Positions 28,701 to 49,716 of a DNA stretch of 64,000 nt are shown here, in pieces (positions within the stretch are counted from its first letter, which is position 1; each line of letters begins with the position of its first letter). The notes below the pieces were generated by a model. The model did no database searches. It was not told where the DNA came from and saw only the letters and a program-made list of their open reading frames with translations. Source of the stretch: Bradyrhizobium sediminis (GTDB lineage Bacteria; Pseudomonadota; Alphaproteobacteria; Rhizobiales; Xanthobacteraceae); the NCBI RefSeq assembly GCF_018736085.1, contig NZ_CP076134.1, positions 1,808,501 through 1,872,500 on the forward strand, in the 5' to 3' direction. A program made the translations under genes and the position numbers.

Positions 28701-28722
28701 TGCATTCGATGGAGAATTGTTT

Positions 28723-31315: not shown

Positions 31316-31343
31316 GCGTCGCCCGATATTGCAGGAGCCCCCG

Positions 31344-32171
31344 ATGCCGAAACGGTCGATGAAGCAGGACGATCCGCTTGATGATTTCATGCGCCGCGAG
31401 ATTGCGCTCGACGGCGTCACCAAGGCGGTGCATGTGGCCGGTGTCGGGCCTGCGGTCATTGTCATGACGGAAATGCCGGGCATCAGCCCGCACGTCGCGC
31501 GCTTCGCCCGCTGGGTTCGGGACGCCGGGTTCAGCGTTTACATGCCGTCGCTGTTCGGCCGCGACGGCGCCGTGCCCGGTGCGGAGGAGGGCGCGGCCGT
31601 CTTTCAGCGCGCCTGTGTCAGCGCCGAGTTCCGTGCCTTCGCCGCCAACGAGTCCAGCCCGGTGACGAAGTGGCTGCGGTCGCTGGCGAGATTTGCGCAT
31701 GAAGAATGCGGCGGTCCCGGCGTCGGCGCCATCGGAATGTGCTTTACCGGAAATTTCGCGCTGACGATGATGCTCGAGCCGTCGATGCTGGCGCCGGTCC
31801 TCTCCCAGCCATCGCTGCCGCTGAACAATCCCGCCGGCATCGAGATCGCGCCGGACGAGGTCAAGGCGGTTCGCCGGCGGCTGGAGCGGGACGATCTGAC
31901 CGTGCTGGCCTATCGCTTCGAGGGCGACAAGTTCTGCATGGCCCAGCGCTTCGCGGCCTATGCCGAGGCGCTCGGCGACCGCTTCATCGGGCGCGTGCTT
32001 CCCGATAGCGCGGCGAACCGCGATCTTCCGCCATTTTTCGAACGCCATGTCACGACCCCTCATAGCGTCGTGACCGCTCATTTGATCGACGAGGCGGGCC
32101 AGCCGACGATCGCGGCGCGCGACGAGATTTTGGCGTTCTTCACGAAACGGCTGGCTCCCGAAGGCCGGTGA
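31344..32171 (+). CDS. dienelactone hydrolase family protein
   Basis: 275 residues of alpha/beta-hydrolase fold. The nucleophile is Cys in GAIGMCFTGNFAL, as in dienelactone hydrolases, and the likely acid and His lie in the C-terminal half. These enzymes open dienelactones in chloroaromatic and catechol pathways and also act on other esters. ATG 31344 has AGGAG 9 bp upstream; the earlier ATG at 31329 lacks one. It converges on an acyl-CoA ligase gene with an 18-bp gap. Confidence 0.82.
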   Translation: MPKRSMKQDDPLDDFMRREIALDGVTKAVHVAGVGPAVIVMTEMPGISPHVARFARWVRDAGFSVYMPSLFGRDGAVPGAEEGAAVFQRACVSAEFRAFAANESSPVTKWLRSLARFAHEECGGPGVGAIGMCFTGNFALTMMLEPSMLAPVLSQPSLPLNNPAGIEIAPDEVKAVRRRLERDDLTVLAYRFEGDKFCMAQRFAAYAEALGDRFIGRVLPDSAANRDLPPFFERHVTTPHSVVTAHLIDEAGQPTIAARDEILAFFTKRLAPEGR

Positions 32172-33746: not shown

Positions 33747-33883
33747 CGAGACCAATCCTTTTTGAGTGCACATCTACGTCGAAGCAGGTCGTCTCGCCAG
33801 CGAGAAATTCGATTTCAATTCGCGGGGCACGACGATATCCTCGCGGCAAGCCGCGGGATGTACAGACAAGTCGGGAGCTCAAT

Positions 33884-34663
33884 GTGGACGCCGTTATCGT
33901 CGAGATCAGGGATGACATTGCCGTGCTGCGGCTCAATCAGCCGCAAACGATGAATGCTCTCAGCGCGGTGATAAAACGCGGCCTTGAGACCGAGGTCCCG
34001 CGATTGCTGGCGGACCGCGCCGTCCGATGCATCGTCATCACCGGGACGGACAAGGCTTTCTGTGCCGGCGGCGACATCACCAACATGGCCGATCGCAGCG
34101 CACCATCGGTGCGCGAGCGTCTGCATCAAAGCCACGCCTGGGTCAAATTGCTGCTTGCCGGTGAAAAGCCGGTGGTTGCGGCCGTCAACGGCGCCGCTGC
34201 GGGGGCGGGCTTTTCCCTCGCCATGATGTGCGATTTCGTGGTGGCCGCCGACAACGCCTATTTCCAGGCCGGTTTCCCCGGACTTGGCGCCGCTCCCGAT
34301 TTGGGTCTGGCGCTGACGCTGCCCCGCGCCGTTGGAATGCTCCGTGCCAAGGACCTTCTGATGACCAACCGGCGGGTCACCGCCGAGGAGGCGCTGACGT
34401 GGGGAATGGCGACGCGCGTCGTTCCCGCGGCGTCCCTGATTCCGGAAGCGCTCGCGCTGGCGCAATCGCTGGCCGCCGGACCCGCGACTTCGCTCGGCTT
34501 GACGAAATCCCTGCTCAACCAGGCCTACAATTCGATCCCGGACTTTCTCAACGAGGAGGCGATGACCCAGGCCATCGCCTTCGGCAGCGAGGAGTTCGAT
34601 GAAGGCGTGGCGGCCTTTCTCGGCAAGCGGAAGCCGCAATTTCGACGCCGCGGTCCGGTCTAG
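33884..34663 (+). CDS. enoyl-CoA hydratase/isomerase family protein
   Basis: 259 residues of crotonase fold with the oxyanion-hole motif DKAFCAGGDITNM, VNGAAAGAGFSLAMMCD and the active-site strand FPGLGAAPDLGLALTLPR. The frame is open further upstream, but GTG 33884 has GGGAG 9 bp ahead and starts the domain correctly. Its TAG stop overlaps the monooxygenase stop on the other strand through a shared CTAG at 34660-34663. Confidence 0.85.
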   Translation: MDAVIVEIRDDIAVLRLNQPQTMNALSAVIKRGLETEVPRLLADRAVRCIVITGTDKAFCAGGDITNMADRSAPSVRERLHQSHAWVKLLLAGEKPVVAAVNGAAAGAGFSLAMMCDFVVAADNAYFQAGFPGLGAAPDLGLALTLPRAVGMLRAKDLLMTNRRVTAEEALTWGMATRVVPAASLIPEALALAQSLAAGPATSLGLTKSLLNQAYNSIPDFLNEEAMTQAIAFGSEEFDEGVAAFLGKRKPQFRRRGPV

Positions 34664-36300
34664 GCAAGTACCAGTTCGTCATACCCTTTCGCCGCCACCT
34701 CGTCGCATCTGGCGCGGTAGGCGGGAGCACTGCCGCTATAGCGCGCGACGATGCGCGTCTGCTTGCCTTCCACATTGCTGTTGATTCCGGTCATCCAGGA
34801 GTTGACCTCGTTGGAGAGCAGCCCCACCCCGAGCGCCTTGACGTGATCGGTCCAGGTCGCGACGCCCGCTGGCGTGGCCTCGACCCGCGTCAGGCCGGAC
34901 TGCCGGGCATAACCGATCAGGCCGGTCACCCAGTCGACATTGTATTCGATGCTGCGCGGAATGTTGCCGAGCGCGGTGTGCGGTCCCATCAGCATCATCA
35001 TGTTGGGGAAGCCGTCGACCATGACGCCGAGAAAGGTCTGCGGGCCGCTCTTCCATTTGTCCTTCAGCCGCACGCCGTCCACGCCGCGCAAGTCGATCCT
35101 GTCGAAACTGCCGGTGATGGCGTCGAAGCCGGTCGCATAGATGATGATGTCGAAGTCGTATTCCTTGTCGCTGGTCTTGATACCCTTGGGCGTGATGCGC
35201 TCGATCGGCGTCTCCGTGATGTCGACCAATTCGACATTGTCCCGGTTGTAGGCCTCGTAATAGAAGGTCTCCAGCGGCAGCCGCCTGGTGCCGAAGCCGT
35301 GATTCCTGGGGATCAGCTTTTCCGCGGCCTTCGGGTCCTTCACCCGCTGGCGGATCTTGCGTGCCACGAAATCGCTGATCGTCGCGTTCGCCTTGCGGTC
35401 GATCAGGATGTCGCGGAAATTGCCCTGCCAGATGCCGAAGCCGCGCTCGCTATAGAGTTTCTCGTAGAAGGCTTCGCGCTCTTCGTCGGAAACCTCGAAA
35501 GCCGCGCGCGGGTCCGGATTATGCAGGAAGCAGGCAAAGGTCTCCTGGCAGCGCCTGAATATTTCGGGGTAGCCGGCCTTGATCTTCTTCTGCGTCTCGG
35601 CATCGATCTTGCCGTTGTGCAGTGGCGCGCACCAGTTCGGTGTGCGCTGGAACACGGTGAGGTGGCCGACACTTCCGGCGATGGTCTGGATGGTCTGCAC
35701 GCCGGTGGCGCCGGTCCCGATCACCGCCACCCGTTTGCCGGCGAAGTCGACCGCCTCATGCGGCCATCGTGCAGTGTGGAAGGATTGGCCCTGAAAAACG
35801 TCCACCCCTTCGATCCGCGGCAAAGTGGGGGAGGAGAGCGGGCCGATCGCGGTGATCAGGAAGCGGGCGCGAAAGCGGCTGCCGTCCTGCAGCATGACGC
35901 TCCAGCTGCGCATGTCCTCCGACCAGGTTGCGGCCGCGACCCGGCTGCGGAACTGGATATCGCGGCGCAGGTCGAACTTGTCGGCGACATGATTGAGGTA
36001 ACGCAGCGTTTCCGGCTGGCCGGCGAAATGCTCGGACCAGTCCCACTCCTCCAGCAGTTCCTGCGAAAAGGAATAGCCGTAGGAGTAGCTTTCGGAATCG
36101 AAGCGTGCGCCTGGATAGCGGTTCCAGTACCAGGTGCCGCCGACGCCGGTGCCGGCCTCGAACACGCGCACCCGCATCCCCAGTTCACGCAATCGGTGAA
36201 GCTGGTACATGCCCGACATGCCGGCCCCGATGACGATGGCATCGAAGTCGAGAGCCGGCGTCACCTCGGTTGAGGCGCTGGCTTCACGCGAACCGGCCAT
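34660..36300 (-). CDS. flavin-containing Baeyer-Villiger monooxygenase
   Basis: 546 residues. The FAD site VIGAGMSGMYQLHRLRE comes first, followed by GGTWYWNRYPGARFDSESYSY. The type I fingerprint FxGxxxHxxxWP is seen as FQGQSFHTARWP, and the NADPH site is VAVIGTGATGVQTIQ. It inserts oxygen next to a ketone using NADPH, giving an ester or lactone. It is the last gene of a minus-strand operon with an SDR and an AhpD-like protein, so alcohol-to-ketone-to-ester oxidation of an alicyclic or terpenoid compound is plausible. Confidence 0.93.
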   Translation of the reverse strand: MAGSREASASTEVTPALDFDAIVIGAGMSGMYQLHRLRELGMRVRVFEAGTGVGGTWYWNRYPGARFDSESYSYGYSFSQELLEEWDWSEHFAGQPETLRYLNHVADKFDLRRDIQFRSRVAAATWSEDMRSWSVMLQDGSRFRARFLITAIGPLSSPTLPRIEGVDVFQGQSFHTARWPHEAVDFAGKRVAVIGTGATGVQTIQTIAGSVGHLTVFQRTPNWCAPLHNGKIDAETQKKIKAGYPEIFRRCQETFACFLHNPDPRAAFEVSDEEREAFYEKLYSERGFGIWQGNFRDILIDRKANATISDFVARKIRQRVKDPKAAEKLIPRNHGFGTRRLPLETFYYEAYNRDNVELVDITETPIERITPKGIKTSDKEYDFDIIIYATGFDAITGSFDRIDLRGVDGVRLKDKWKSGPQTFLGVMVDGFPNMMMLMGPHTALGNIPRSIEYNVDWVTGLIGYARQSGLTRVEATPAGVATWTDHVKALGVGLLSNEVNSWMTGINSNVEGKQTRIVARYSGSAPAYRARCDEVAAKGYDELVLA

Positions 36301-36436: not shown

Positions 36437-37237
36437 CTAACCCCGCCGCACGCTCGCGCCGCCGTCCACCGGCAACGTCACGCCGGTGATGAAGCCGGCC
36501 TCATCCGAGGCCAGGAACAGGGCCGCGTTGGCGACGTCCCAGCCGGTGCCCATCTTCCTGCGCAACGGCACTTTTGCATCGCGCTCGGCTTCGACCTCGG
36601 CGCGGCTTTTCTTGAACTCGCGGGCGCGGGTATCGACCGCCATCGGCGTGTTCATCAGGCCGGGCAGGATGACGTTGGCGCGGATGCCATACTGGGCATT
36701 CTGGTAGGCGAGCTGTTCGGTGAAGGAGATCATCGCCGATTTGGTCGCCTTGTAGGCGACATAGGGATAGGTGGTGATGGCGGCCATCGAGGAAATGTTG
36801 ATGATCGCGCCGCTCATCTGCTGGCGCATGATCGGGATGACGTGCTTGGCCGCGAAGATGCAGCTTTTGAGGTTGATGGCCACGCAGCGGTCGAGCGCCT
36901 CCTCGGTGATATCCAGCAGCTCGGCATCGCCGCCGGCGATGCTGACTCCCACATTGTTGTGCAGGATATCGACACGGCCCCAGCGGGCGACCGCGTCCGA
37001 TACCATGGACTTGAGCTCGGCATTCCTGGTGACGTCGGCCTTGAAAGCTGCCGCCGTGCCTCCGTCGGCGCCGATCATGTCGACCGTCTCCTGCGCCGAT
37101 TTGAGATTGTGATCCACGCACAGCACGCGAGCGCCTTCGCGCGCGAAGGTGAGGGCGGTGGCGCGGCCGTTGCCGATGCCTTCGCCGGGGCTCTGGCCGG
37201 CACCGACGACGATGGCGACGCGATCTTTCAGGCGCAT
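36437..37237 (-). CDS. short-chain dehydrogenase/reductase
   Basis: 266 residues. GAGQSPGEGIGNGRATAL is an extended cofactor loop. NNVG, Ser in INISSMAA and Y-x3-K in YVAYKATKSA follow, ending with GGASVRRG. It would oxidise a secondary alcohol to the ketone used by the monooxygenase in the same operon. It starts 6 bp after the AhpD-like gene's stop, consistent with coupling. Confidence 0.9.
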   Translation of the reverse strand: MRLKDRVAIVVGAGQSPGEGIGNGRATALTFAREGARVLCVDHNLKSAQETVDMIGADGGTAAAFKADVTRNAELKSMVSDAVARWGRVDILHNNVGVSIAGGDAELLDITEEALDRCVAINLKSCIFAAKHVIPIMRQQMSGAIINISSMAAITTYPYVAYKATKSAMISFTEQLAYQNAQYGIRANVILPGLMNTPMAVDTRAREFKKSRAEVEAERDAKVPLRRKMGTGWDVANAALFLASDEAGFITGVTLPVDGGASVRRG

Positions 37238-37243
37238 GTCAGT

Positions 37244-37792
37244 TCACTCCGGAATCGGGTACTGTTGCAGTACCTCTTTGTAAGTTGGTTCATTATCTAT
37301 CTTCATGGTAGCGAGCACGCGGACCACGGCGCAGTAGAAGGCGATGGTGAGCACAAGGTCGGTCATTTGCTCATCGCTGAGCTCGTTCTTGATTTCGGCG
37401 AAGGTGGCTTCGGACATCGCGAGTTCGCGCACCATCTCGCGGGCGCCTTTCAGGATCGCGCTGGCGAGCGGCTCGAGGGTTGAGGATTTGCCCTCGGTCT
37501 CGGCCATCAGGCCGGCGATATCCTGATCGGAAACGCCGAACTCCTTGCCGATCTTTACGTGATGGGTGAATTCATATTCCGATTTCTCCATCCAGCCGAC
37601 TTGAAGGATCGCGAGTTCGCGCAACCGCGGGTCGAGCTTGCTGTTGAAGCGGATGTAGCCGCCGACTCCGTTGAAGGCGCGCGCCATATCGGGCGAATTG
37701 ACCAGCAGCTTGTGCAGATTGGTGTTGCGCTTGAGCATGTCGCGATACTCGGGCGCGATCTGGTCGGCCTCGAGATAGGGCAGGCGAGCCAT
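37244..37792 (-). CDS. carboxymuconolactone decarboxylase / AhpD-like protein
   Basis: 182 residues with the fold segment LDPRLRELAILQVGWMEKSEYEFTHHVKIGKEFG. The His at the end of this helix is conserved, but the CxxC typical of AhpD is absent, so peroxidase activity is unlikely; lactone decarboxylase or a non-redox role is more plausible. ATG 37792 follows GGGAATAAC. It is the first gene of the minus-strand operon. The longer upstream frame to 37966 has poor composition and is not used. Confidence 0.85.
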   Translation of the reverse strand: MARLPYLEADQIAPEYRDMLKRNTNLHKLLVNSPDMARAFNGVGGYIRFNSKLDPRLRELAILQVGWMEKSEYEFTHHVKIGKEFGVSDQDIAGLMAETEGKSSTLEPLASAILKGAREMVRELAMSEATFAEIKNELSDEQMTDLVLTIAFYCAVVRVLATMKIDNEPTYKEVLQQYPIPE

Positions 37793-38101
37793 CTTGTTAT
37801 TCCCAGTTTTATGGCGTGGCCGACATCGGCCCGGGGGGTGAGAAGAGGAATTTGCTCCGCTTCCTGTCGTTGCACAATCGGGATTCGAGAACGAGTTGGA
37901 CGGCGCCTGCTCTTGCACGTTGTGGAATGCCGGTTCGCAGGTTTCCAGCGCGCGCCCGCACAGCAACGGGGCGTGTCAGCCAATTCCGTAACACGGAACA
38001 AAATTCCGCTTGCATCGGAAACCAACCAAGGTTTCATGTTCGGCAACAAGCAGCCGAACTGGACGCCATGCGCGCTGGTCAATCGGCAATGAGGAAGCGT
38101 G
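37793..38101. promoter_or_regulatory. divergent promoter region with TTCCGT-N3-ACGGAA site
   Basis: This 309-bp gap lies between the AhpD-like gene and the CoA-transferase. It contains a perfect inverted repeat, TTCCGT-AAC-ACGGAA, at 37984-37998, with a further TTCCG at 38004. It is therefore a good operator candidate for the long downstream operon. No gene is supported in it. Confidence 0.55.
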
Positions 38102-40546
38102 ATGGGGGCGTTGTCGCATCTGCGAATTGTCGAGATTGGAAGTGCGGCGGCGGCGAGCTACTGTGCACGCCTGTTTGCGGACTTCGGCGCGACCGTTCAC
38201 AAGATCGAACCGCCGCAGGGTGACCCGCTTCGCCGCACCGCGCCATTGACGCCGAAAGGGCAGAGCGCGTGGTTCGCGTTCCTGAACTTCAACAAGTCGA
38301 GCGTCGCGCTCGATCCGGCCGATGCGGGCGCCGTGGCGCGGCTGACTGTGCTGATCGAAAACTGCGACATCCTGATCGATGGCCGCGACGTGGACGCGGC
38401 GGACTGCCCGGTATTCGATCTTGCCGCGCTCAAGACGCGCAATCCCGGCCTCATTCATGTCGACGTCAGCTGGTTCGGCCCCGACGGTCCCTATGTGAAG
38501 TTCGAGGCAACCGACTCGACCATTCGCGCGCTGACGGGCCTGGTCAAGCTGGTCGGTCCGGTCGAGGGGCCGCCGGCGCACGCGCCCGATTTCCAGACCG
38601 GTATTTTCGCCGGCCTCTGGGGCTTTATCGCCGCGGCATCGTCCGTGCTCGGCCGCATGCGGGACGGACGCGGCCGCACCAGCGCGCTCAGCATCTTCGA
38701 GTCGAGCATCGCCGTCACCGAATACATCATGTTCGAGTCGTTTACGCGCGGCGACATCATGCGCCGCATCGGCGTCAACCGCTTCTGGCCGACTTTTCCC
38801 GTCGGCATCTATGAAACCAAACAGGGCTGGCTGGGCGTCACCACGGTGACCCCGGCACAGTGGCGCGCCTTCTGCGAGATGCTCGAACTATATGACCTGC
38901 GCGATGACGCAACGCTGTTCATGGGCGTTGACCGATTGCTGCGCATGGAAGAAATCGAAAGCAAGTTCATACCCAAGCTGAAGAGCCGCACCGCGCAGGA
39001 ATGGTTCGCGGAAGGATTGAAGCGAAAGATTCCGATCGTGCCGGTGCCGGATATCGGCGACCTGATCGGCGACGACGAGAAGAAATCTAGCGGGGCCATC
39101 GTCCCGATCGCCATCGGCGACGAGACCGGGTTTACCGCGGGCTCCATGCAGCGGCTGACGGGCACGCCGCCGCGGCGCGGCGGCGCCGTTCCGGCGATCG
39201 GCGAGGGGCAGCGAGCCGCATCTCCGTCAAGTGACGGGGCCGTACGCGCTCCGGCGACCAAACCGGGCGATCCAAAGCGCTTGTCGCTCGAGGGCGTGCG
39301 CGTGATCGACTTCTCGATGGGCTGGGCGGGACCGATCTGCACGCGGACGCTGGCCGATCTCGGCGCCGACGTGATCAAGATCGAGGCAACTCAGTATCCC
39401 GACTGGTGGCGCGGCGTCGACCGGCGGCCAGCCTACGTGCTCGAACAGATGTACGAGAAGTCGGTGCGCTACTGCATCATGAACCGCAACAAGCGCGGCA
39501 TCACGCTCGATCTGACCCAGCCGCAGGGCCTGCAGCTTGCCAAACGTCTGCTCGCCGACGCCGATCTCGTCGTCGACAATTACTCGGTCGAAGTGCTGCC
39601 GAAACTCGGGCTGGGCTACGAAGTGCTCAGCCAGCTCAATCCAAAGATCGTCATGATGTCGATGTCGGCGTTCGGCGCGGGCAGCATCTACCGCGACTGC
39701 CGCGCCTATGGCTCGACGCTGGAGCAGGGCTCGGGGCTGCCGAGCGTCGTCGGCGACGCCAATGGACCGCCGGTCATGAGCCACACCGCGTTCGGCGATG
39801 CCGTCGGCGGATTGAACGGGTGCGCGGCCGTACTCACGGCTCTGATCCACGCAAGGCTGACCGGCAAAGGCCAATTCATCGATCTCGCGCAGATCGAATG
39901 CATGATGCCGTTTGCCGCGCCCTGGATCGTCGCCCATTCGATCGACGGCAGGACACCCGTGAAACACGGCAATCGTCATCCGGACTTTGTGCCGCATGGT
40001 TGCTTCCCCTGCGCCGGCAGCGACAACTGGATCGTGGTCGCCGTTTCCAGCGGCGAGATGTGGCCACGGCTGTGCAGGGTGCTGGGCCGCGCCGACTGGG
40101 CCGCGGACGAAACGCTGGGCAGCGCTGCCAACCGACGAAGAATCGAGAGCGAGATCGAGGCCGCCATAGCGAACTGGACCTCCACGCGCCTGCCCGACGA
40201 TGCGATGGGCGCATTGCAGGCCGCCGGCGTCGCAGCGGGCGTGGCGCGGCTGCCGATCGAACTGCTGAAGGACCCGCATCTACATGCGCGCGGATTCATT
40301 CAGGAGATTGATCGGGCCTTCATCGGCCGGCATCCGCAACCTTCGATGCCGTTCCGCGAGAACGGTGCGCCGTTCGAGATTCGCTCGGCGCCGCCGACGC
40401 TCGGCGAGCACAATCGTGAAATACTCGCCGGCATGCTCGGACTGTCCGACGCCGAGATCGATCAGCTGGCACGCGAGGGCATTATCGGTACCGAAATGCT
40501 GATGGAAGAGCAGCTCGTGAAAGAGAAGAAGCGGGCGGCAGGCTGA
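38102..40546 (+). CDS. fused tandem type III CoA-transferase (CaiB/BaiF)
   Basis: 814 residues forming two complete CaiB domains. Domain 1 (about 1-360) has the catalytic-Asp motif PDFQTGIFAG near residue 163. Domain 2 (about 390-790) has GVRVIDFSMGWAGPICTRTLADLGADVIKIE and its Asp motif GDAVGGLNG. A low-complexity linker of Arg, Ala and Gly joins them. Type III enzymes move CoA between carboxylates via an aspartyl-CoA anhydride. The start is ATG 38102, 3 bp after a possible GTG, behind GAGGAAG. It heads an operon with an ABC importer and an acyl-CoA carboxylase. Confidence 0.9.
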   Translation: MGALSHLRIVEIGSAAAASYCARLFADFGATVHKIEPPQGDPLRRTAPLTPKGQSAWFAFLNFNKSSVALDPADAGAVARLTVLIENCDILIDGRDVDAADCPVFDLAALKTRNPGLIHVDVSWFGPDGPYVKFEATDSTIRALTGLVKLVGPVEGPPAHAPDFQTGIFAGLWGFIAAASSVLGRMRDGRGRTSALSIFESSIAVTEYIMFESFTRGDIMRRIGVNRFWPTFPVGIYETKQGWLGVTTVTPAQWRAFCEMLELYDLRDDATLFMGVDRLLRMEEIESKFIPKLKSRTAQEWFAEGLKRKIPIVPVPDIGDLIGDDEKKSSGAIVPIAIGDETGFTAGSMQRLTGTPPRRGGAVPAIGEGQRAASPSSDGAVRAPATKPGDPKRLSLEGVRVIDFSMGWAGPICTRTLADLGADVIKIEATQYPDWWRGVDRRPAYVLEQMYEKSVRYCIMNRNKRGITLDLTQPQGLQLAKRLLADADLVVDNYSVEVLPKLGLGYEVLSQLNPKIVMMSMSAFGAGSIYRDCRAYGSTLEQGSGLPSVVGDANGPPVMSHTAFGDAVGGLNGCAAVLTALIHARLTGKGQFIDLAQIECMMPFAAPWIVAHSIDGRTPVKHGNRHPDFVPHGCFPCAGSDNWIVVAVSSGEMWPRLCRVLGRADWAADETLGSAANRRRIESEIEAAIANWTSTRLPDDAMGALQAAGVAAGVARLPIELLKDPHLHARGFIQEIDRAFIGRHPQPSMPFRENGAPFEIRSAPPTLGEHNREILAGMLGLSDAEIDQLAREGIIGTEMLMEEQLVKEKKRAAG

Positions 40547-41622
40547 TGGAAACGGGCCGCCCGGCAGAACGTATATCGGCAGCGGCTGCCACGGGCAGCC
40601 CGCTGATGTCGGTGCGCGGGCTCGGCATTCGCTTCAAGACCGCGCAGGGCGTGTGGCAGGCGACGCGCAAGATCGACTTCGACATCGCGCCGGGCGAGCG
40701 CGTCGGAATCGTCGGCGAAAGCGGTTGCGGCAAGACCATCACCGGCCTTTCGATCCTGCGCCTGCTGCCGAACAATCTCTCCGGCCTGGACGGCTCGATC
40801 CTGTTCGATGACGTCGATCTGGCCTCATGCAGCGCAAGGACGATGCGCTCGATTCGAGGGCGCCGGATCGGGATGATCTTTCAGGAGCCGATGAGCGCGC
40901 TCGACCCGGTGTTTACCGTCGGGCACCAGATCGCTGAGACCCTGCGTGTTCACACCGATATCGGCAAGGAGGAGGCGCGGGCGCGGACCATCGATATGCT
41001 TCGCCGGGTCGGCATCGCGTCGCCGGAACGCCGCATTGACGATTATCCGCATCAGCTTTCCGGTGGAATGCGCCAGCGCGTCATGATCGCGGCCGCGCTG
41101 ATCTGCTGTCCTCAATTGCTGATCGCCGACGAGCCGACCACCGCCCTCGACGTCACCGTGCAGGCGCAGATCCTGGAACTGCTGCGAAGTCTGAGCGAAA
41201 CCTCGAATACCGCGCTGATGCTCATCACCCATGATCTCGGCGTGGTCGCCGAAACCTGTACCCGCATGATCACCATGTATGCGGGCGAGGTGATCGAGGA
41301 TGCCGGGGTCGACGCTGCGCTGGTTCGGCCGCTGCATCCCTATACCTCCGGCCTGTTGCGCTCGCTGCCGCACCTCAGTCCGCGCCTCGGAAAGTTGCCG
41401 TCGATTCCGGGCCGTGTTCCCTCGATTGCCGACATGCCTCGGGGGTGCCGATTCAAGGCCCGCTGCCCGCATGCCGCCGCGGGCTGCGAGGCCGAGCAGG
41501 AACTGCTCGACGCCGGCGAAGGCCGCAAGGTGCGTTGCTGGCGCTTCCGGGAGCTCGAATTGCCCGGCGCGTTGCAACACGCGGCCTCCGCGCCGATTGC
41601 GGCAAGGGTGGCGCGGCAATGA
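40546..41622 (+). CDS. dipeptide-type ABC transporter ATP-binding protein (DppD-like)
   Basis: 358 residues. Walker [10 protein letters not shown]-loop [10 protein letters not shown], signature [12 protein letters not shown], Walker [13 protein letters not shown] and [10 protein letters not shown] are present. The C-terminal oligopeptide-transport extension has [11 protein letters not shown]. Its ATG shares a base with the CoA-transferase stop (TGATG), so translation is coupled. It supplies energy to the permeases at 44218 and 45171 together with the next gene. Confidence 0.93.
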
Positions 41623-42623
41623 TGTCCCCGGGCGCCGAAACCAAAGCGGATCCGATCGTCTCGGTGCGAGACCTCGAGGTGGGCTTTCAGACGATGGATC
41701 GCCGCGCGACGGTGAAGGCGGTCGACGGCGTCAGCTTCGACGTCCGCCGTGGCGAGACGTTCGGAATCATCGGCGAGTCAGGATCGGGCAAGACAACGAT
41801 CGGCCGTGCGCTGGTGTTTCTCCTGAAGCCGACGGCGGGCGCCATTCTGCACAATGGGCGCGACCCGCAAGCGTTGCCGCGGAAGGCGTTCCAGAGCCAT
41901 CGCCGCGACTACCAGATCATCTTTCAGGATCCGAATGCCGCGCTGAATCCGCGCATGACCATCATCTCGTCGGTGCTGGAGCCGCTCGAGCTGGCGCGTG
42001 CAGGCACCAGGACCGAGCGCGTCGCGCGGGCACGGGAGGCGATGGATCGGGTCGGCTTGCCCCAGGAGATTGGCGAGCGGTATCCGCACCAGCTTTCCGG
42101 CGGACAAAAACAGCGCGTCATCATTGCACGCGCGCTCACGCTGCGGCCGAAGCTGATCGTCTGCGACGAGGTGGTGGCGGCGCTCGACATGTCGATCCGC
42201 GGCGACGTGCTCAATTTGTTTGCCGAGCTGCAGCGCGACCTCGGCTTGACCTATGTGTTCATCACCCATGACCTGTCGGTGGTTTCGCACATCAGCAACC
42301 GGATCGCGGTGATGTATCTCGGCCGCTTTGTCGAGCTTGGCCCGGCCGAGAGCGTTTCGGGGCGGCCACTGCATCCCTATACGCAGGCACTGTTGTCGGC
42401 GGAGCCGTTGCCGCTGCCGTCGAACCTGCGCAGCGACCGTCGCATTATCCTGCAGGGCGAGATCCCGAGCCCGATCGATCCGCCTTCGGGGTGCCGTTTC
42501 CGCACCCGCTGCCAGTATGCGCAAGCGGTTTGCGCCGGGCAGACACCGGCCTGGCGCGAACTGGAGCCGGATCACTGGGTCGCCTGCCATTTCACCGATC
42601 GCCCGAATTTTTCGCCGAGCTAA
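41619..42623 (+). CDS. dipeptide-type ABC transporter ATP-binding protein (DppF-like)
   Basis: 334 residues. Walker A GESGSGKTT, Q-loop FQDPNAALNP, signature LSGGQKQRVIIARAL, Walker B LIVCDEVVAALD and ITHDLSVVSHISNR are seen, with the C-terminal GCRFRTRCQYA segment. It overlaps the previous gene by 4 bp (ATGA). Heterodimers of DppD- and DppF-type subunits power oligopeptide, nickel and some glycoside importers. Confidence 0.93.
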   Translation: MMSPGAETKADPIVSVRDLEVGFQTMDRRATVKAVDGVSFDVRRGETFGIIGESGSGKTTIGRALVFLLKPTAGAILHNGRDPQALPRKAFQSHRRDYQIIFQDPNAALNPRMTIISSVLEPLELARAGTRTERVARAREAMDRVGLPQEIGERYPHQLSGGQKQRVIIARALTLRPKLIVCDEVVAALDMSIRGDVLNLFAELQRDLGLTYVFITHDLSVVSHISNRIAVMYLGRFVELGPAESVSGRPLHPYTQALLSAEPLPLPSNLRSDRRIILQGEIPSPIDPPSGCRFRTRCQYAQAVCAGQTPAWRELEPDHWVACHFTDRPNFSPS

Positions 42624-42653
42624 CGATCATCACCTTCGATGGAGGACAATGCC

Positions 42654-44213
42654 ATGACCAGAGTAAAGATGTGGACGACACGACGCGAGGCGATGGCGTT
42701 GCTATCGGGCGCCGTGGCCGGCATCGCGCTCGGCGGCAACGCCCATGCACAGGGCACGCCGAAGCGCGGTGGCGTCCTGCGCATTTCGGCGCCGACCAAC
42801 CCCTCGAGCCTCGATCCGGCCACCGGCGGCGCGGGCTCGGATCACGCGTTTCTGTTCACCATGTACGATACCTTGACCGAGTGGGACTTCGAGACCCTGA
42901 AGCCGAAGCCGGGTCTCGCCGAGAGCTGGAGCTTCACCGATCCAACCACCTTCGTCATCAACATCCGGCAGGGCGTGACCTTTCATGACGGCACGCCGCT
43001 CGATGCGGAGGCCGTCAAGTTCAACCTCGAGCGCAACAAGAGCGATCCCAAATCCAACATCAAGGCGGATCTTGCGACCATGGCGTCGGCGGCCGTCACC
43101 GGTCCGATGCAGGTGACCCTGAAACTGAATGCACCCGACGCCGCATTGCCCGGCATCCTCAGCGATCGCGCGGGCATGATGGTGTCGCCGACGGCGCTCA
43201 AGGCCAGCGCTGCCGGCAACGTCGCGCGCACGCCGGTCGGCGCCGGCGCCTACACCTTTGTCAGCTGGGCGGACGGCGAGCGCATCGTCGTCAAGCGCAA
43301 TGAAAAATACTGGAAGGCGAACCGGCCTTATCCCGATGGCATCGAATTCGCGATCATTCCCGAGCTGACCACGGGCGTGCGCTCGGTCACCGCCGGACAG
43401 AACGATCTGATCTATCAACTGCCGCCGCGGCAGAAGGTGGTCGTGGAACGCTCGAACAACCTCAAGATATTCAACGGCCCGACGCTCTACGTCTTCCAGA
43501 TCTTCCTGAACTGGGCAAAGCCGCCGTTCGACGACATCAGGGTGCGCAAGGCGTTCAATCTGGCCATCGATCGCGAATCCTTCGTCAAGGCGGCGCTCGC
43601 GGGCCTTGCTGAGCCGGCCTACATGAACCTGCCGAAATCGCATTGGGCCTACGACAAATCGGTCGCCGCGCTCACGCCTTACGATCCCGATCGGGCGCGC
43701 AAGCTGCTCGCCGAAGCGGGCTTCAAGGAAGGGACGATGATCGAATTCGTCGGCTATCCGGACCAGGACTCGGTTCAGCGCCAGGAAATCCTGATCGAGC
43801 AGTTGCGCAAAGTGGGCATCGGCGTGCGCTTCCTCAATGCACCGATCGCGGAAGCTTCGGCGGCGTTTTTTGGCGCCGAGAAACGGGGCTCCGGGCTGCT
43901 CGCGGCCTGGACCGGACGGCCGGATCCGAGCCTGACCTACTCGTTGATGTTCACCAAGGACGCCTATTACAACGGCGGCAGGGGGGCGGTGCCAGCGGAA
44001 CTGGAAGCCGCAATCAAGGAGTCGCGCGCCTCCGAAGACATCCAGATCCGCAGCAAGGCATTCGCGACCGTGCAGCGGCTCGTGATGGAGAACGCCTTCG
44101 TCGTGCCGCTCGCCTTCCAGTTCGAACTGGTCGCGATGAACAAGAAGGTGCAAGGCTACAGGCCGAACCTGCTCGGCAAGCCGAAATACGACGACGTCTG
44201 GCTGGAGAGCTAG
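42654..44213 (+). CDS. ABC transporter substrate-binding protein (peptide/nickel type, SBP_bac_5)
   Basis: 519 residues. The leader contains twin arginines (TTRREAMALLSGAVAGIALG, cleavage near AHA-QG), so Tat export is likely. The mature part begins GTPKRGGVLRIS, with YDTLTEWDFETLKPKPGLAESW, the usual start of lobe 1. ATG 42654 has GGAGG 8 bp upstream; the ATG at 42639 lies before that site. The ligand is unknown, and the operon partners point to a carboxylate or acyl compound instead of a peptide. Confidence 0.92.
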   Translation: MTRVKMWTTRREAMALLSGAVAGIALGGNAHAQGTPKRGGVLRISAPTNPSSLDPATGGAGSDHAFLFTMYDTLTEWDFETLKPKPGLAESWSFTDPTTFVINIRQGVTFHDGTPLDAEAVKFNLERNKSDPKSNIKADLATMASAAVTGPMQVTLKLNAPDAALPGILSDRAGMMVSPTALKASAAGNVARTPVGAGAYTFVSWADGERIVVKRNEKYWKANRPYPDGIEFAIIPELTTGVRSVTAGQNDLIYQLPPRQKVVVERSNNLKIFNGPTLYVFQIFLNWAKPPFDDIRVRKAFNLAIDRESFVKAALAGLAEPAYMNLPKSHWAYDKSVAALTPYDPDRARKLLAEAGFKEGTMIEFVGYPDQDSVQRQEILIEQLRKVGIGVRFLNAPIAEASAAFFGAEKRGSGLLAAWTGRPDPSLTYSLMFTKDAYYNGGRGAVPAELEAAIKESRASEDIQIRSKAFATVQRLVMENAFVVPLAFQFELVAMNKKVQGYRPNLLGKPKYDDVWLES

Positions 44214-44217
44214 GAGG

Positions 44218-45174
44218 ATGGCGCGACGAAGTCCGGCAAAGGTGATCGGCAGCCGCCTGTTGCAGGCGCTGCCGGTGATCCTGCTCGCGACTTTCATGGT
44301 GTTTTCGCTGCTCAAGCTGGTGCCCGGCGACATCGCGGTGACGCTGGCGGGCGACAACGCTTCCGACGTCCGCATCGCCGAGATCAGAAAGATATACGGT
44401 CTCGACCGGCCGTTCATGGTGCAGTACGGCTCGTGGCTCGGAAACGCCGTCCAGGGCGACCTCTCGCAATCGCTGCTGACGGGGGAGAAGGTTGCGGTTT
44501 CGATCTCCCGGGCCTTTCCCAACACGCTGCTGATCGTAGCTATCGCGCTATTGCTGGCGCTCCTGACCGGAATCCCGATGGGCATCGTGGCGGCGATCAA
44601 GCCCAACGGCTGGGTCGACAAGCTGGTCAGCATGGTCGCTTCGCTCGGTGTGGCGATCCCCGGCTTCTGGCTCGCCATGATCCTGGTTGCCGAAATCTCA
44701 CTGAGACTGAACTGGCTGCCGGCCACGGGAGCGAAATCCTTCGCGGTATCGCCGTGGGAGGCGATCCGGCATGCACTGCTGCCCGGCATAGCCATCGCAG
44801 CTTACGGCATGGCGGAGGTGGCGCGGCAGTTGCGCGGCTCGCTGCTGGAGGTGTTGTCGTCGCAATATGTGCGGACGTTGCACGCCAAGGGACTCTCGAT
44901 GGCCAGAATTCTCTGGCAGCACGGTCTCAAGAACGTCAGCGTCAATCTGTTCACCATCATCAGCCTGCTGGTCAATCGCATGCTGGCGGCGACCGTGGTC
45001 ATCGAAGCCGTGTTCGCCATTCCCGGCCTGGGAAGTTTGATCGTCCGCGGCGCCATTCAGCGCGATTTCCCGATCGTGCAGGGCGTGGTGTTCACCATGG
45101 TGATCGTCGTCATTCTGGTCAACCTGATCGCCGATCTCCTGTGCGCGGCGGTCGACCCAAGGATCGAGCAATGA
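44218..45174 (+). CDS. dipeptide-type ABC transporter permease (DppB-like)
   Basis: 318 residues, about six spans. The first periplasmic loop holds KLVPGDIAVTLAGDNAS and IRKIYGLDRPFMVQYG, as in DppB. The EAA loop reads YVRTLHAKGLSMARILWQHG. It starts 4 bp after the binding-protein stop, behind GGAGG in AGCTAGGAGG, and overlaps the next gene by 4 bp. Confidence 0.92.
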   Translation: MARRSPAKVIGSRLLQALPVILLATFMVFSLLKLVPGDIAVTLAGDNASDVRIAEIRKIYGLDRPFMVQYGSWLGNAVQGDLSQSLLTGEKVAVSISRAFPNTLLIVAIALLLALLTGIPMGIVAAIKPNGWVDKLVSMVASLGVAIPGFWLAMILVAEISLRLNWLPATGAKSFAVSPWEAIRHALLPGIAIAAYGMAEVARQLRGSLLEVLSSQYVRTLHAKGLSMARILWQHGLKNVSVNLFTIISLLVNRMLAATVVIEAVFAIPGLGSLIVRGAIQRDFPIVQGVVFTMVIVVILVNLIADLLCAAVDPRIEQ

Positions 45175-46055
45175 GCGACCTTGTGCTCCGAGGCCAGCCC
45201 CGCCCGGCGACAGTGACGCCCCTGCGCCGCTTCTTCAGCTGGCTGGCCTCGGATCTGCGGGCGGCGCTGGCGATCGTCGTCCTGCTCGGACTCGTCATCG
45301 TCGCGGTCGGCGCGCCGTGGATCGCGCCCTATTCGCCGACCGCGCAGGACATCAACAACATGCTGGCGGCACCCGGTCCAGGCCATCTGCTCGGCACCGA
45401 CGATCTCGGCCGCGACATCTTCAGCCGGCTGATCTACGGCGCGCCGGCCACCGTGTATGCGAGCCTGCTCGCCGTCAGCGTCGCCGTCGCCATCGGGTTG
45501 CCGGTTGGATTGGCCGCTGGTTTCTTCGGCGGCTGGACCGATGATATCATCAGCCGCGTGATCGATACCTTTCTTTCGTTTCCCGCCATCGTGCTGGCGA
45601 TCGCGGTGACCGGCGCGCTGGGCATCGGGCTCACCAATGGAATGATCGCTGTCGGCATCGTGATGTTTCCGGCGCTGGCGCGGATCGTACGGGCGCGCAC
45701 GCTGATCGTGCGCCAGGAACTCTATGTCGATGCGTCGCGCTGCTTCGGCGCGCCGGCCTGGCACATCCTGTGGAAGCACGTGTTGCCGAATTCGCTGCAG
45801 CCGGTCATCGTCCAGGTGACCCTGCTGTTGGCCGCCGCACTGCTTGCGGAAGCAAGCCTCAGCTTCCTCGGTCTCGGCATCCAGCCGCCGAACCCGAGCT
45901 GGGGCGCCATGCTGGCCCGCGCCTATCAATACATGGAGATCGCCCCGGAGCAGATGTATGCGCCCGGATTGGCCATCCTCGTCATTTCGCTGGCGTTCAA
46001 CGCGCTGGGCGAGTCCTTGCGCATCGTACTCGATCCCACCATGAAGGATCGCTGA
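45171..46055 (+). CDS. dipeptide-type ABC transporter permease (DppC-like)
   Basis: 294 residues, about six spans. APYSPTAQDINNMLAAPG and HLLGTDDLGRDIFSRLIYGA are the DppC N-terminal hallmark, and the EAA loop contains YVDASRCFGAPAWHILWKHV. ATGA overlap with DppB. It completes a five-protein importer. The carboxylase gene follows after 19 bp. Confidence 0.92.
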   Translation: MSDLVLRGQPRPATVTPLRRFFSWLASDLRAALAIVVLLGLVIVAVGAPWIAPYSPTAQDINNMLAAPGPGHLLGTDDLGRDIFSRLIYGAPATVYASLLAVSVAVAIGLPVGLAAGFFGGWTDDIISRVIDTFLSFPAIVLAIAVTGALGIGLTNGMIAVGIVMFPALARIVRARTLIVRQELYVDASRCFGAPAWHILWKHVLPNSLQPVIVQVTLLLAAALLAEASLSFLGLGIQPPNPSWGAMLARAYQYMEIAPEQMYAPGLAILVISLAFNALGESLRIVLDPTMKDR

Positions 46056-46074
46056 GCTTCAACCGGAAACATTC

Positions 46075-49000
46075 ATGCCCTTCCATAGACTTCTGATCGC
46101 CAATCGCGGCGAAATCGCCATTCGTATCGCCCGTGCCGCCGGTGAAACCGGCCTTGCCACCGTCGCCATCTACCCATCGGATGACGCGCTGTCGCTGCAC
46201 GTCCGGGCCGCCGACGAAGCCCACGAAATTCCGGGGCGGGGCGCGCGCGCCTATCTCGATGTCGAAGCGGTGATCGCGGCTGCGAAGGCTGCGAATTGCG
46301 ACGCGTTGCACCCCGGCTATGGTTTTCTCAGCGAGAATTCGTTGCTGGCGCGCCGTTGCGCAGAGCAGGGGATCGTTTTCGTCGGGCCTTCCCCCGAAGC
46401 GCTCGATTTGTTCGGCGACAAGATCGAGGCCAAGCGGCTCGCCAGGCGCTGCGGCCTGCCCGTGATCGAAGGCACCACCGGCCCGACCACGCTGGAGGAG
46501 GCCAAGGCTTTCTTCGCCTCGCTCGGGGCCGGTGCGGCGATCATGATCAAGGCGGTGGCCGGCGGCGGCGGCCGCGGCATGCGGTTCGTCGAGGACGCCG
46601 CAAAGCTGGAGGAGGCCTATGCGCGTTGCCAATCCGAGGCGAAGGCCGCCTTCGGAAATTCCAACGTCTATGTCGAGCGCCTGATCCGCAAGGCGCGCCA
46701 CATCGAGGTGCAGATCATCGGCGATCACTACGGGGCGATAAGCCATTTGTGGGAACGTGAGTGCACGGTCCAGCGGCGGAACCAGAAGCTGATCGAGGTC
46801 GCACCGAGCCCCTCGCTGAGCGATGGCTTGCGTACCCGCATCATCGATGCGGCAAAGGCGCTTGCAGCCGCAGCGCATTACGACAATCTCGGCACCTTCG
46901 AATTCCTGGTTGATGGCGAGACAACCGTCGGCGATCCGGCGTTCGCCTTCATCGAGGCCAATCCGCGGCTCCAGGTCGAGCATACCGTGACCGAAGAGGT
47001 GCTGGGTGTCGATCTCGTGAAGTCGCAGCTCGCGGTCGCCGCCGGCGCTACCCTGGCCTCGCTCGGCCTGGCGCAATCGGCCGTTCCGGCGCCACGCGGC
47101 TTTGCCATGCAGCTCCGCATCAACATGGAAGTTATGGACGAGAAGGGTGCGACGAAGCCGACCGGCGGTACGCTGGCGGTGTTCGATCCGCCTTCCGGCC
47201 CGGGCGTGCGCGTCGATACTTTTGGGTATGCCGGGTACAAGACCAGTGCAGCCTTCGACTCTTTGCTGGCCAAGGTGATCGTTCATTCGCCGGCCGCAAG
47301 CTGGCCCGATGTGGTGCAGAAGGCAGCGCGCGCCTTGCGCGAATTCCGCATAGGAGGTGTCGCCACCAACATCCCGTTCATCCAGGCGGTGCTGGCGCAT
47401 CCGGATTTCGCCGCCAACCGCATTGCCACCGACTTCATCGATACCCATGTCGCCGCGCTGGTCTCCGCCACAACGGAAATCGCACGGCCGCTGTTCTTCG
47501 CTGCCGGGGAAGCGGCTCCATCTCGCAAGGTCGAAGAGCCCGCCGCCGGTCCGGCCGGATCGGTGCCGGTGGCGGCGCCCCTGCAAGGCACCATCGTCGC
47601 CATCGAGGTCTCGGAAGGGGATCTGGTGCGCCCGGGGCAGCAGATCGCCATCCTCGAATCGATGAAGATGGAGCACCTGGTCGCGGCTCCGCACGGCGGC
47701 AAGGTCACGAAGATTGGCGCCGCAAGCGGCGCGACGCTGATGCACGGCGAGACCATCCTGTTTCTCGAGCCGGCCGAGATCGAGGGCGGCGAGGTTGAAG
47801 AAGAAGCCGCCATCGATCTCGATCATATCCGCCCCGATCTTGCCGATCTCATCGCCCGCCACGCGATCACGCTCGACGAGAACCGTCCAGCCGCAGTCGA
47901 GCGCCGGCGCAAGACCAATCAGCGCACCGCGCGGGAAAATATCTCGCAACTGGTCGATGAGGGCTCGTTCGTCGAATACGGATCGCTGGCGATCGCCGCC
48001 CAGCGCCGCCGGCGCAAGCTCGATGACCTCATCAGGAACACGCCGGCCGATGGCCTGATCGCGGGCGTTGCCACCGTGAACGCGGACAAGTTCGGCGTTC
48101 AAGGTGCCCGCTGCATGGTGATCTCCTACGACTATACCGTGCTGGCCGGTACCCAGGGCCACATGAACCACAAGAAGATCGACCGCATGCTCGGCCTGGT
48201 CGAGCAATGGCGGATGCCGCTGGTATTCTATGGCGAAGGCGGCGGCGGCCGCCCGGGCGACACCGACCGGCTTGGCATGACCGGCCTCGACGGGCCGTCA
48301 TTCGTTCAGTTTGCGAAGCTCTCCGGCCTGGTGCCGGTCGTGGGCGTGGTGTCCGGCTATTGTTTCGCCGGCAACGCCGCGATGCTGGGCTGCTGCGACG
48401 TCATCATTGCGACGAAAAATGCGTCGATCGGCATGGGCGGCCCGGCGATGATCGAAGGTGGCGGTCTCGGCGTCTACCATCCTGCGGAAGTCGGGCCGGT
48501 GTCGTTTCAGGCGCCGAACGGCGTCATCGACATTCTCGTCGAGGACGAGGAGGAAGCCACCAGCGCCGCGCAGAAATACCTGTCTTACTTTCAGGGCTCA
48601 GTTGCCTCATGGAAGGCGCCGGATCAGCGCCTGCTGCGGCGCGCCATCCCCGAAAATCGCCTGCGGGTCTATGACATCCGTACGGTCATCGATCTCCTCG
48701 CGGATGAAGGATCGGTGCTCGAGATTCGCCGGGATTTCGGCGTCGGCATGATCACCGCCTTCATTCGTATCGAAGGCAAGCCGTTCGGACTGATCGCCAA
48801 CAACCCGAAGCACCTCGGCGGCGCGATCGATGCGCCGGCAGGGGACAAGGCTGCGCGCTTCATGCAGCTCTGCGATGCCTTCGACATTCCGATCGTGTCG
48901 CTGTGCGATACGCCGGGCTTCATGGTGGGACCCGAGGCCGAGAAGACGGCGATCGTGCGCCACGTCGCCCGCATGTTCGTGACCGGGGCCAGTCTGACCG

Positions 49001-49383
49001 TGCCGCTGTTTGCCGTCGTGCTGCGCAAGGGCTATGGCCTGGGCGCGCAATCCATGATCGGCGGCGGTTTCCACGCCTCCTTCTTCACGGTGGCGTGGCC
49101 GACCGGCGAGTTCGGCGGCATGGGCCTGGAGGGCTATGTCCGGCTTGGCTTCCGCAAGGAAATGGAAGCGATCCCTGATCCCGTCGAGCGGGAGAAATAC
49201 TACCAGGCCAAGGTTGCCGAGCTCTACGCCAACGGCAAGGCGACCTCGATCGCGTCCGTCCTCGAGATCGACGAAGTCATCGATCCCGCCGAGACCCGCC
49301 GCTGGATCATGGCCGGCCTCAATTCCGTGCCGAAGCCCGAACCGCGCGGCCACCGCAAGCGGCCCTGCATCGACGCCTGGTAG
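46075..49383 (+). CDS. single-chain biotin-dependent acyl-CoA carboxylase (LCC type)
   Basis: 1102 residues. Residues of about 1-450 are biotin carboxylase: LIANRGEIAIRIARAAGETG, GGGGRGMRFVED, EVQIIGDHYG and FIEANPRLQVEHTVTE. About 500-580 is the biotin carrier with biotinylation Lys 531 in ESMKMEH. About 600-1090 is the carboxyltransferase: RKTNQRTARENISQLVDEGS, GGGRPGDTDR and LCDTPGFMVGPEAEK. The same order is known from single-chain long-chain acyl-CoA carboxylases, which form homo-hexamers. Substrates range from acetyl-CoA to long acyl-CoA and cannot be decided here. It ends the operon. Confidence 0.93.
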   Translation: MPFHRLLIANRGEIAIRIARAAGETGLATVAIYPSDDALSLHVRAADEAHEIPGRGARAYLDVEAVIAAAKAANCDALHPGYGFLSENSLLARRCAEQGIVFVGPSPEALDLFGDKIEAKRLARRCGLPVIEGTTGPTTLEEAKAFFASLGAGAAIMIKAVAGGGGRGMRFVEDAAKLEEAYARCQSEAKAAFGNSNVYVERLIRKARHIEVQIIGDHYGAISHLWERECTVQRRNQKLIEVAPSPSLSDGLRTRIIDAAKALAAAAHYDNLGTFEFLVDGETTVGDPAFAFIEANPRLQVEHTVTEEVLGVDLVKSQLAVAAGATLASLGLAQSAVPAPRGFAMQLRINMEVMDEKGATKPTGGTLAVFDPPSGPGVRVDTFGYAGYKTSAAFDSLLAKVIVHSPAASWPDVVQKAARALREFRIGGVATNIPFIQAVLAHPDFAANRIATDFIDTHVAALVSATTEIARPLFFAAGEAAPSRKVEEPAAGPAGSVPVAAPLQGTIVAIEVSEGDLVRPGQQIAILESMKMEHLVAAPHGGKVTKIGAASGATLMHGETILFLEPAEIEGGEVEEEAAIDLDHIRPDLADLIARHAITLDENRPAAVERRRKTNQRTARENISQLVDEGSFVEYGSLAIAAQRRRRKLDDLIRNTPADGLIAGVATVNADKFGVQGARCMVISYDYTVLAGTQGHMNHKKIDRMLGLVEQWRMPLVFYGEGGGGRPGDTDRLGMTGLDGPSFVQFAKLSGLVPVVGVVSGYCFAGNAAMLGCCDVIIATKNASIGMGGPAMIEGGGLGVYHPAEVGPVSFQAPNGVIDILVEDEEEATSAAQKYLSYFQGSVASWKAPDQRLLRRAIPENRLRVYDIRTVIDLLADEGSVLEIRRDFGVGMITAFIRIEGKPFGLIANNPKHLGGAIDAPAGDKAARFMQLCDAFDIPIVSLCDTPGFMVGPEAEKTAIVRHVARMFVTGASLTVPLFAVVLRKGYGLGAQSMIGGGFHASFFTVAWPTGEFGGMGLEGYVRLGFRKEMEAIPDPVEREKYYQAKVAELYANGKATSIASVLEIDEVIDPAETRRWIMAGLNSVPKPEPRGHRKRPCIDAW

Positions 49384-49482
49384 CATAGCGAGCCTCTTCA
49401 GGCTTGCTGTGCCGATGAAGTCTGTCGTGAGGGCAGATTTCCGTCAGGACTGCCAGCATCGCTGCAGACGCGTCCGTTCGCG

Positions 49483-49641: not shown

Positions 49642-49662
49642 TCCGTGGCCCGAAAAGGCTTC

Positions 49663-49692
49663 GCTGCCGCCTCAAGGGGCGGCAGCTTTTTT
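49663..49692 (+). terminator. rho-independent terminator
   Basis: GCTGCCGCC (49663-49671), loop TCAAGG, GGCGGCAGC (49678-49686), then TTTTTT. A perfect 9-bp GC-rich stem with a six-T tail. It ends transcription of the RTX remnant or of the whole 38-49 kb operon. Confidence 0.88.
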
Positions 49693-49716
49693 CTGGGTGC
49701 TGAGATTGTTTTGGCT

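Follow-up and report, generated by a model that had tools for sequence, protein, structure and literature searches.

A co-inherited seven-gene block of Bradyrhizobium combining a fused CoA-transferase, a Dpp-type importer and a single-chain acyl-CoA carboxylase

In the geranyl-CoA and methylcrotonyl-CoA pathways, a catabolic acid is activated with CoA and then carboxylated by a biotin-dependent enzyme. A similar succession is suggested by a block of seven genes in Bradyrhizobium sediminis, which lies in a window of 64,000 nucleotides (bases 1808501-1872500 of the single 5.55 Mb contig NZ_CP076134.1; all positions below are those of the window) and encodes a fused double family III CoA-transferase, an importer of the dipeptide type and a biotin-dependent carboxylase. 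However, the geranyl-CoA and methylcrotonyl-CoA carboxylases consist of two subunits, whereas the carboxylase of the window is a single chain and matches the long-chain acyl-CoA carboxylase (LCC) far better. The literature search yielded no description of the seven-gene combination, in agreement with the original prediction, which had been made from the letters of this stretch and knew of no named pathway with this set; by that search, the block is an undescribed combination of known families. Our favored but tentative reading is that a non-peptide organic acid is imported, activated with CoA and carboxylated, and that a neighboring Baeyer-Villiger monooxygenase (BVMO) belongs to the same pathway.

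The seven genes are co-directional on the plus strand (38102-49383), with spacings that range from -4 to +19 bp. TGATG overlaps (-1) connect the CoA-transferase with dppD and dppD with dppF, and an ATGA overlap (-4) connects dppB with dppC; the remaining gaps are +15 bp (dppF to binding protein), +4 bp (binding protein to dppB), and +19 bp (dppC to carboxylase). All seven open reading frames, their direction and their tight spacing are as originally predicted, and Pfam agrees with the domain content proposed at that time (double transferase, dipeptide-type importer, single-chain carboxylase). The gene of the binding protein is present and ends at 44213 but starts at 42639, the position assumed earlier (42654) being an in-frame internal ATG. 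The genes presumably form a single transcript. The terminator-like hairpin downstream of the carboxylase has the longest stem among the 10 sites obtained in a scan of the region (shuffle mean, 7.9). A search for a sigma-70 promoter gave two matches in 37900-50200 (shuffle mean, 1.7), neither of them upstream of the operon.

The sequence of the carboxylase places it in the LCC/YCC family of single-chain enzymes. It aligns over its whole length with the long-chain acyl-CoA carboxylase 4rcn (1110 bits; residues 6-1079 to 5-1070) and also matches the solved chains 5fif and 5h80; the titles of these PDB entries are “long-chain acyl-CoA carboxylase” and “Carboxylase”. We take 4rcn to be the enzyme of M. 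avium subsp. paratuberculosis and 5fif and 5h80 to be YCC of Deinococcus radiodurans. Residues 3-1082 comprise, in one chain, the Pfam domains Biotin_carb N/L_D2/C, Biotin_lipoyl, and Carboxyl_trans, with the biotin motif SMKM at residue 529, so that the full-length match, the BC-BCCP-CT arrangement and the biotin motif are shared with LCC/YCC. By contrast, the carboxylase gene of the window shares an operon with the genes for importer and transferase, whereas that of D. radiodurans follows an AMP-forming ligase. A relative with 59% identity over the whole length is present in a plasmid record of P. aeruginosa.

The best solved match of the CoA-transferase (CoA_transf_3, 580.6 bits; cut-off, 23.3) is benzylsuccinate CoA-transferase BbsEF (9fn0), which consists of separate chains, whereas the two halves are fused in the window. 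Among solved structures, the C-terminal half is closest to chain B of this enzyme (231 bits) and the N-terminal half is closest to YfdE (99 bits). The canonical Asp, the catalytic residue of family III CoA-transferases, is residue 566 of the C-terminal half and is present in 106 of 106 homologs; the matching column of the N-terminal half holds Gly in 95, Ala in 9, and Gln and Asp in one homolog each. Another Asp, four residues before that column, recurs in all N-terminal rows printed except that of locus L057. Judging from this pattern, catalysis probably resides in a single half of the fusion protein. BbsEF likewise pairs an Asp-bearing with an Asp-lacking unit. No benzylsuccinate genes are found among the annotated neighbors of the block, and the NCBIfam cut-offs of the named equivalogs (SucGlut, mesaconate, formyl, oxalate, carnitine) are not reached (best, 319.7 bits against 750).

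The importer has the complete five-gene set and the family 5 binding protein (Pfam) that also characterize the Dpp/Gsi-type importers of peptides and glutathione. Among solved structures, the binding protein best matches the ABC binding protein 5u4o, YliB (1uqw), and AapF. It differs from the peptide importers in that no importer protein reaches the cut-off of any NCBIfam family shown (best 25 per protein) and in that a key residue of DppA is missing. In E. coli DppA, the amino group of the bound peptide is held by Asp436 (precursor numbering), located in WTGDNGDPD; the binding protein of the window has WTGRPDPS at this site, which lacks the Asp and has an adjoining Arg. This motif is shared by 41 of 47 aligned binding proteins, including that of the window; the six sequences without it are E. 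coli DppA, two from L057, and those of L082, L103, and L117. The binding protein of L180 carries YTGRTDPS. Because the Asp is replaced in this manner, an ordinary dipeptide is an unlikely ligand and an anionic one more likely; the adjoining Arg is likewise consistent with the predicted uptake of an acid.

The block is a recurring unit whose genes are inherited together, beyond chance proximity. When named genomes were scanned with the transferase as query, 115 encoding stretches were obtained, and the best 79 loci (75 titled Bradyrhizobium) were retained, 40 with at least 79% identity and 39 with 61-71%. Among the 40 orthologous loci, 33 have at least 9.2 kb of downstream sequence, which is enough to recognize the block, and 30 of these contain all seven genes in ascending order. 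In two of the exceptions (L108, L113), the carboxylase directly follows the transferase; the third (L103) breaks inside dppD. No block was detected at the cut-offs used in any of the 39 loci with 61-71% identity, many of which end before 9 kb. As to a split of homologous blocks into unrelated loci, which would have refuted the original prediction, the paralogs sit elsewhere and are blockless at these cut-offs, but 30 of the 33 orthologous loci with sufficient flank keep the arrangement. All seven genes are under purifying selection (dN/dS 0.016-0.17, in comparison with four relatives), and the distance matrix of the carboxylase correlates with those of the other six genes (r = 0.84-0.96; 28-29 sequences; observed value reached in 0 of 999 permutations), with r = 0.964 for the transferase.

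The carboxylase gene is in two frames in one of the 30 complete loci (L154) and in pieces in the Bradyrhizobium genome G697, possibly by decay or sequencing error. The double transferases of 61-71% identity (among L114-L162) lie in regions where few open reading frames are recognized, perhaps symbiosis islands. Two of them (L130, L136) directly follow a BVMO with 44% identity, and many such loci are near a short-chain dehydrogenase (SDR) or an enoyl-CoA hydratase.

Transferase and importer form an optional module of the carboxylase locus. In a sister clade (L170-L172, L175-L178), an amidohydrolase gene leads straight to the carboxylase, whereas transferase and importer are present between the two in L086. 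Gain or loss of the module at one and the same edge of the carboxylase has probably occurred repeatedly. Other genes in the neighborhoods of the sister clade (L086, L092, and relatives) encode an enolase-superfamily protein, a cytosine-deaminase-like amidohydrolase, hydantoinase A/B, and an NMT1/SsuBC-type transporter. The amidohydrolase and NMT1/SsuBC genes were rejected as a core part of the system, since the amidohydrolase is not found in the genome of the window, although four other genomes were matched in the same search.

That the transferase serves in CoA activation is supported by related loci, because some blocks of carboxylase and importer carry an AMP-forming ligase instead, or both enzymes. 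Plasmid pOT1-2 of Haematobacter massiliensis (L009) encodes the carboxylase, a divergent double transferase, a GntR regulator, the importer with its set of five genes, and an AMP-forming ligase. L070 (importer, AMP-forming ligase, carboxylase) and L082 (carboxylase, importer, AMP-forming ligase, and a different binding protein) are without a transferase, L057 combines carboxylase, transferase, and importer genes, and in L180 a protein that is weakly CaiB-like (24%) accompanies carboxylase and importer. The importer of L070 is of the same subfamily as that of the window (binding protein 58% identical, WTGRPDPS shared), so that transferase and ligase have apparently been swapped for one step. 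The ATP-free activation postulated for the block therefore applies to the version in the window but not to L070 and L082, which have the ligase, or to L009, which has both.

A double transferase adjoins the carboxylase also on the plasmids of Cupriavidus sp. EM10 and C. necator N-1, an AMP-forming ligase is located directly upstream of the carboxylase in Tistrella, Acuticoccus, and D. radiodurans, and two such ligases are found at most 7 kb from it in Paracoccus. Overall, a CoA-activating enzyme is encoded close to the carboxylase in seven of the eight plasmid contexts opened; none is near that of the P. aeruginosa record. A neighboring CoA activator is usual outside Bradyrhizobium and not the rule within the genus. 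On the Cupriavidus plasmids (L164, L165), a second carboxyltransferase-type protein (29-30% identity to the carboxylase, 490 aa aligned) is encoded beside carboxylase and double transferase.

Within the genus, the gene that most consistently accompanies the carboxylase lineage represented in the window is that of the BVMO, which had no place in the original prediction. A survey of 126 genomes, which overlap with those of the named loci (L108 and L113 correspond to G714 and G723), counted the BVMO at an identity of at least 80% and this carboxylase lineage at one of at least 82%; it left out rows of 55-60% for the BVMO, 53-60% for the carboxylase, and 63-71% for the transferase, treated the two carboxylase pieces of G697 as one genome, and assigned the partial matches in G698 and G724 to the other carboxylase lineage (79-81%). 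BVMO and carboxylase each occur in 49 genomes and both in 46. They share a contig in 43, within 2,014 bp of each other in 41 of these; in G695 and the genome of the window, the block intervenes and the distance is 9-10 kb. The two genes are convergent in 40 of the 43 genomes, and the BVMO is upstream and points away in G633, G695, and the genome of the window. Because the two genes stay close in two arrangements, a shared pathway is suggested. The orthologous transferase occurs in 27 genomes, 26 of which have the same carboxylase lineage; where both are on one contig (22 genomes), the gap is 5.5-5.9 kb, the size of the importer, in 20 cases and 73 or 190 bp in the other two. None of the 63 genomes with the other carboxylase lineage has the BVMO at that threshold or the orthologous transferase. 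In four loci of that lineage and in the Acuticoccus locus (L071, L072, L078, L079, L081), genes for an amidohydrolase and then a CobW-type GTPase precede the carboxylase by a few kilobases.

The translation of the BVMO gene carries FQGQSFHTARWP, which fits FxGxxxHxxxWP, the fingerprint of type I BVMOs. Its nearest solved relative is OTEMO (camG) of the camphor pathway; according to an excerpt of PMC6027186, OTEMO forms a lactone linked to CoA. In the clade of the window, the BVMO is accompanied by an SDR and, in some members, by a carboxymuconolactone-decarboxylase-type (CMD) protein and a dienelactone-hydrolase-family (DLH) protein, which may hydrolyze a lactone produced by the BVMO. The SDR is retained beside the block in L040, L085, L115, and L155, and also in L167, which is without transferase and importer; the CMD protein is present in L040 and L115 and is not found in L155 or L167.

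Table 1. Features of the seven-gene block and its upstream neighborhood (positions in the window)
Feature	Position	Strand	Details
Fused double family III (CaiB/BaiF) CoA-transferase	38102..40546	+	814 aa; Pfam CoA_transf_3 x2
dppD-like ABC ATPase	40546..41622	+	358 aa; ABC_tran + oligo_HPY
dppF-like ABC ATPase	41622..42623	+	333 aa; ABC_tran + oligo_HPY
Family 5 solute-binding protein	42639..44213	+	524 aa; SBP_bac_5; N-terminal TTRRE twin-arginine-like segment
dppB-like permease	44218..45174	+	318 aa; BPD_transp_1
dppC-like permease	45171..46055	+	294 aa; BPD_transp_1 + OppC_N
Single-chain biotin-dependent acyl-CoA carboxylase, LCC/YCC family (by sequence)	46075..49383	+	1102 aa; BC-BCCP-CT
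Intrinsic-terminator-like hairpin	49663..49686	+	10 pairs, T6 tail; ~280 bp past carboxylase; pattern scan
DLH-family protein	31329..32171	+	PF01738; dN/dS 0.09 vs L115
AMP-forming acyl-CoA ligase near BVMO genes	32190..33773	-	AMP-binding; best NCBIfam PRK06187, above cut-off
Type I BVMO, OTEMO-like	34660..36300	-	best solved match 3uov OTEMO, 592 bits
SDR	36437..37237	-	adh_short_C2; 6 bp from CMD gene
CMD/AhpD-type protein	37244..37966	-	PF02627; divergent from operon; start uncertain

Two minus-strand open reading frames of this neighborhood were rejected as genes. The frame at 33815-34639 has no Pfam match and a dN/dS of 0.99 against L040, and the overlying plus-strand enoyl-CoA hydratase frame is constrained; the frame at 31197-32081 has no Pfam match, a dN/dS of 2.8 and two in-frame stops against L115, and here it is the DLH frame that is constrained. 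Downstream of the operon and convergent with it, a LuxR-type (PAS + GerE) and an AraC-TPR regulator are encoded on the minus strand (50024-51154 and 51935-53470). Farther upstream (23078-29181, plus strand), genes for an enoyl-CoA hydratase, a fused FAD-monooxygenase/old-yellow-enzyme, MarR, a ligase, and RidA form a set that presumably resembles a pathway of the 2-aminobenzoyl-CoA type; the fused protein is above the NCBIfam cut-off for salicylyl-CoA 5-hydroxylase/oxidoreductase, and the ligase is just below that of the benzoate-CoA-ligase family.

The tentative reading given at the outset builds on gene content, gene order, conservation, the catalytic Asp, the biotin motif, and the recurrent association of the genes, all of which were observed. 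According to this reading, the seven genes are transcribed as one unit, and their products would import a non-peptide organic acid and ready it for breakdown. If the steps follow each other on one molecule, the Dpp-type importer would take up the acid, the C-terminal half of the transferase would move CoA onto it from a donor acyl-CoA by family III chemistry at Asp566, and the single-chain carboxylase would add a carboxyl group to the resulting acyl-CoA, using ATP and bicarbonate. The role envisaged for the OTEMO-like BVMO, together with the SDR and possibly the DLH protein, would be to open a ketone-bearing ring or chain in the same pathway.

Several observations weigh against this proposal. 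The orthologous transferase is absent from 23 of the 49 genomes with the carboxylase lineage of the window, six of which have a paralog of 66-71% identity elsewhere; the importer is missing in L108 and L113, which do have transferase and carboxylase; and in L046, transferase and importer are followed by unrelated genes, and the remaining 2 kb of the contig hold no carboxylase. Uptake, CoA transfer, and carboxylation were correctly predicted to belong to a recurring, co-inherited unit, but their action in sequence on one molecule is a conjecture that these cases weaken. In the close relative L167, BVMO, SDR, and carboxylase occupy the same site without transferase or importer between them. Three genomes carry the carboxylase without the BVMO and three the BVMO without the carboxylase, and part of the linkage between the two may stem from common descent of a single clade.

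The distribution of CoA activators points in the same direction. A ligase or transferase was found in 22 of 40 carboxylase stretches (two of which, L014 and L078, represent one locus) and neither in 18. Sixteen of the latter are from Bradyrhizobium: 11 belong to the carboxylase lineage of the window and have no transferase, four are among the five loci of the other lineage, and one is L180, in which the CaiB-like protein did not reach the cut-off and was scored as no activator. The remaining two stretches are those of L076 and the P. aeruginosa record. Inspection of 12 transferase-less loci of the window's lineage revealed 11 without a CoA-activating enzyme in approximately 19-20 kb; in L167, a ligase is located approximately 4 kb from the carboxylase. 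Because 18 of 40 stretches show no activator, our confidence in the proposed route dropped from even to slightly below even. The structure model of the binding protein (14 sequences) has a pLDDT of only 42.

An alternative that we consider unlikely, yet worth weighing, is that the same pathway handles different molecules: the importer would bring in a precursor, such as an amide, ester, or conjugate, while transferase and carboxylase would act on products of BVMO, SDR, and hydrolase. The BVMO is the most constant neighbor of the carboxylase even where transferase and importer are lacking (L069, L167, L168, L170-L178), and amidohydrolase, enolase-superfamily, and hydantoinase genes are frequent in the neighborhoods of the sister clade, as such a scheme would have it. 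However, importer and carboxylase also occur together in loci with no recognized BVMO in the stretch read (L009, L070, L082, L057), and the absence of the amidohydrolase from the genome of the window, in a search that matched four control genomes, likewise argues against a precursor of this kind.

Less probable still is a linkage of convenience, in which an insertable transferase-importer cassette landed upstream of a carboxylase with an unrelated role in acyl-CoA metabolism. The presence or absence of the cassette at the upstream edge of the carboxylase in two backgrounds (L167 versus the window; L170-L172 and L175-L178 versus L086), its occurrence without carboxylase in L046, and the 18 carboxylase stretches without a CoA-activating enzyme would all agree with this explanation, as would the description, in an excerpt of PMC6491548, of LCC of Mycobacterium and Pseudomonas as acting on C2-C16 acyl-CoAs. 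By contrast, the recurrence of the association between carboxylase and importer in other gene orders (L009, L057, L070, L082, L180) and the close correlation of carboxylase and transferase distances favor a functional connection.

The notion that the fused transferase, instead of being a plain activator, works as a CoA-transferase/lyase like DddD has very little to commend it: DddD shares the fused double CaiB architecture, and the genes of plasmid-borne relatives with approximately 30% identity are next to, or overlap with, those of iron-containing alcohol dehydrogenases, which we take to be the neighborhood of dddD (dimethylsulfoniopropionate breakdown; which loci are dddD is likewise our assumption), but identity is just approximately 30%, the block has no alcohol dehydrogenase of that kind, the test for membership in DddD was negative, and relatives with 43-44% identity on two Cupriavidus plasmids adjoin a carboxylase.

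A more specific version of the preferred reading, in which an imported acid is activated and carboxylated, would have block and BVMO serve specifically to process a plant terpenoid or oxylipin acid that bears a ketone and resembles abscisic or jasmonic acid; this is a long shot. According to an excerpt of PMC9599779, Rhodococcus shortens the side chain of abscisic acid, and a BVMO is suggested for the next step, a possible parallel that serves as a lead only. If such a route existed, it would join re-purposed Dpp import, CoA transfer, a carboxylation that unlocks a branched or blocked acyl-CoA, and BVMO cleavage at the ketone, and it would provide a natural substrate for LCC/YCC carboxylases.

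The apparent swap of transferase and ligase, like the optional nature of the importer, illustrates the way in which a catabolic entry module comes together. Moreover, since a conserved operon ties an LCC/YCC-type carboxylase to a binding protein, the natural substrate can be sought by a ligand-binding experiment, and the substrate of the block could make that of the LCC/YCC carboxylases findable.

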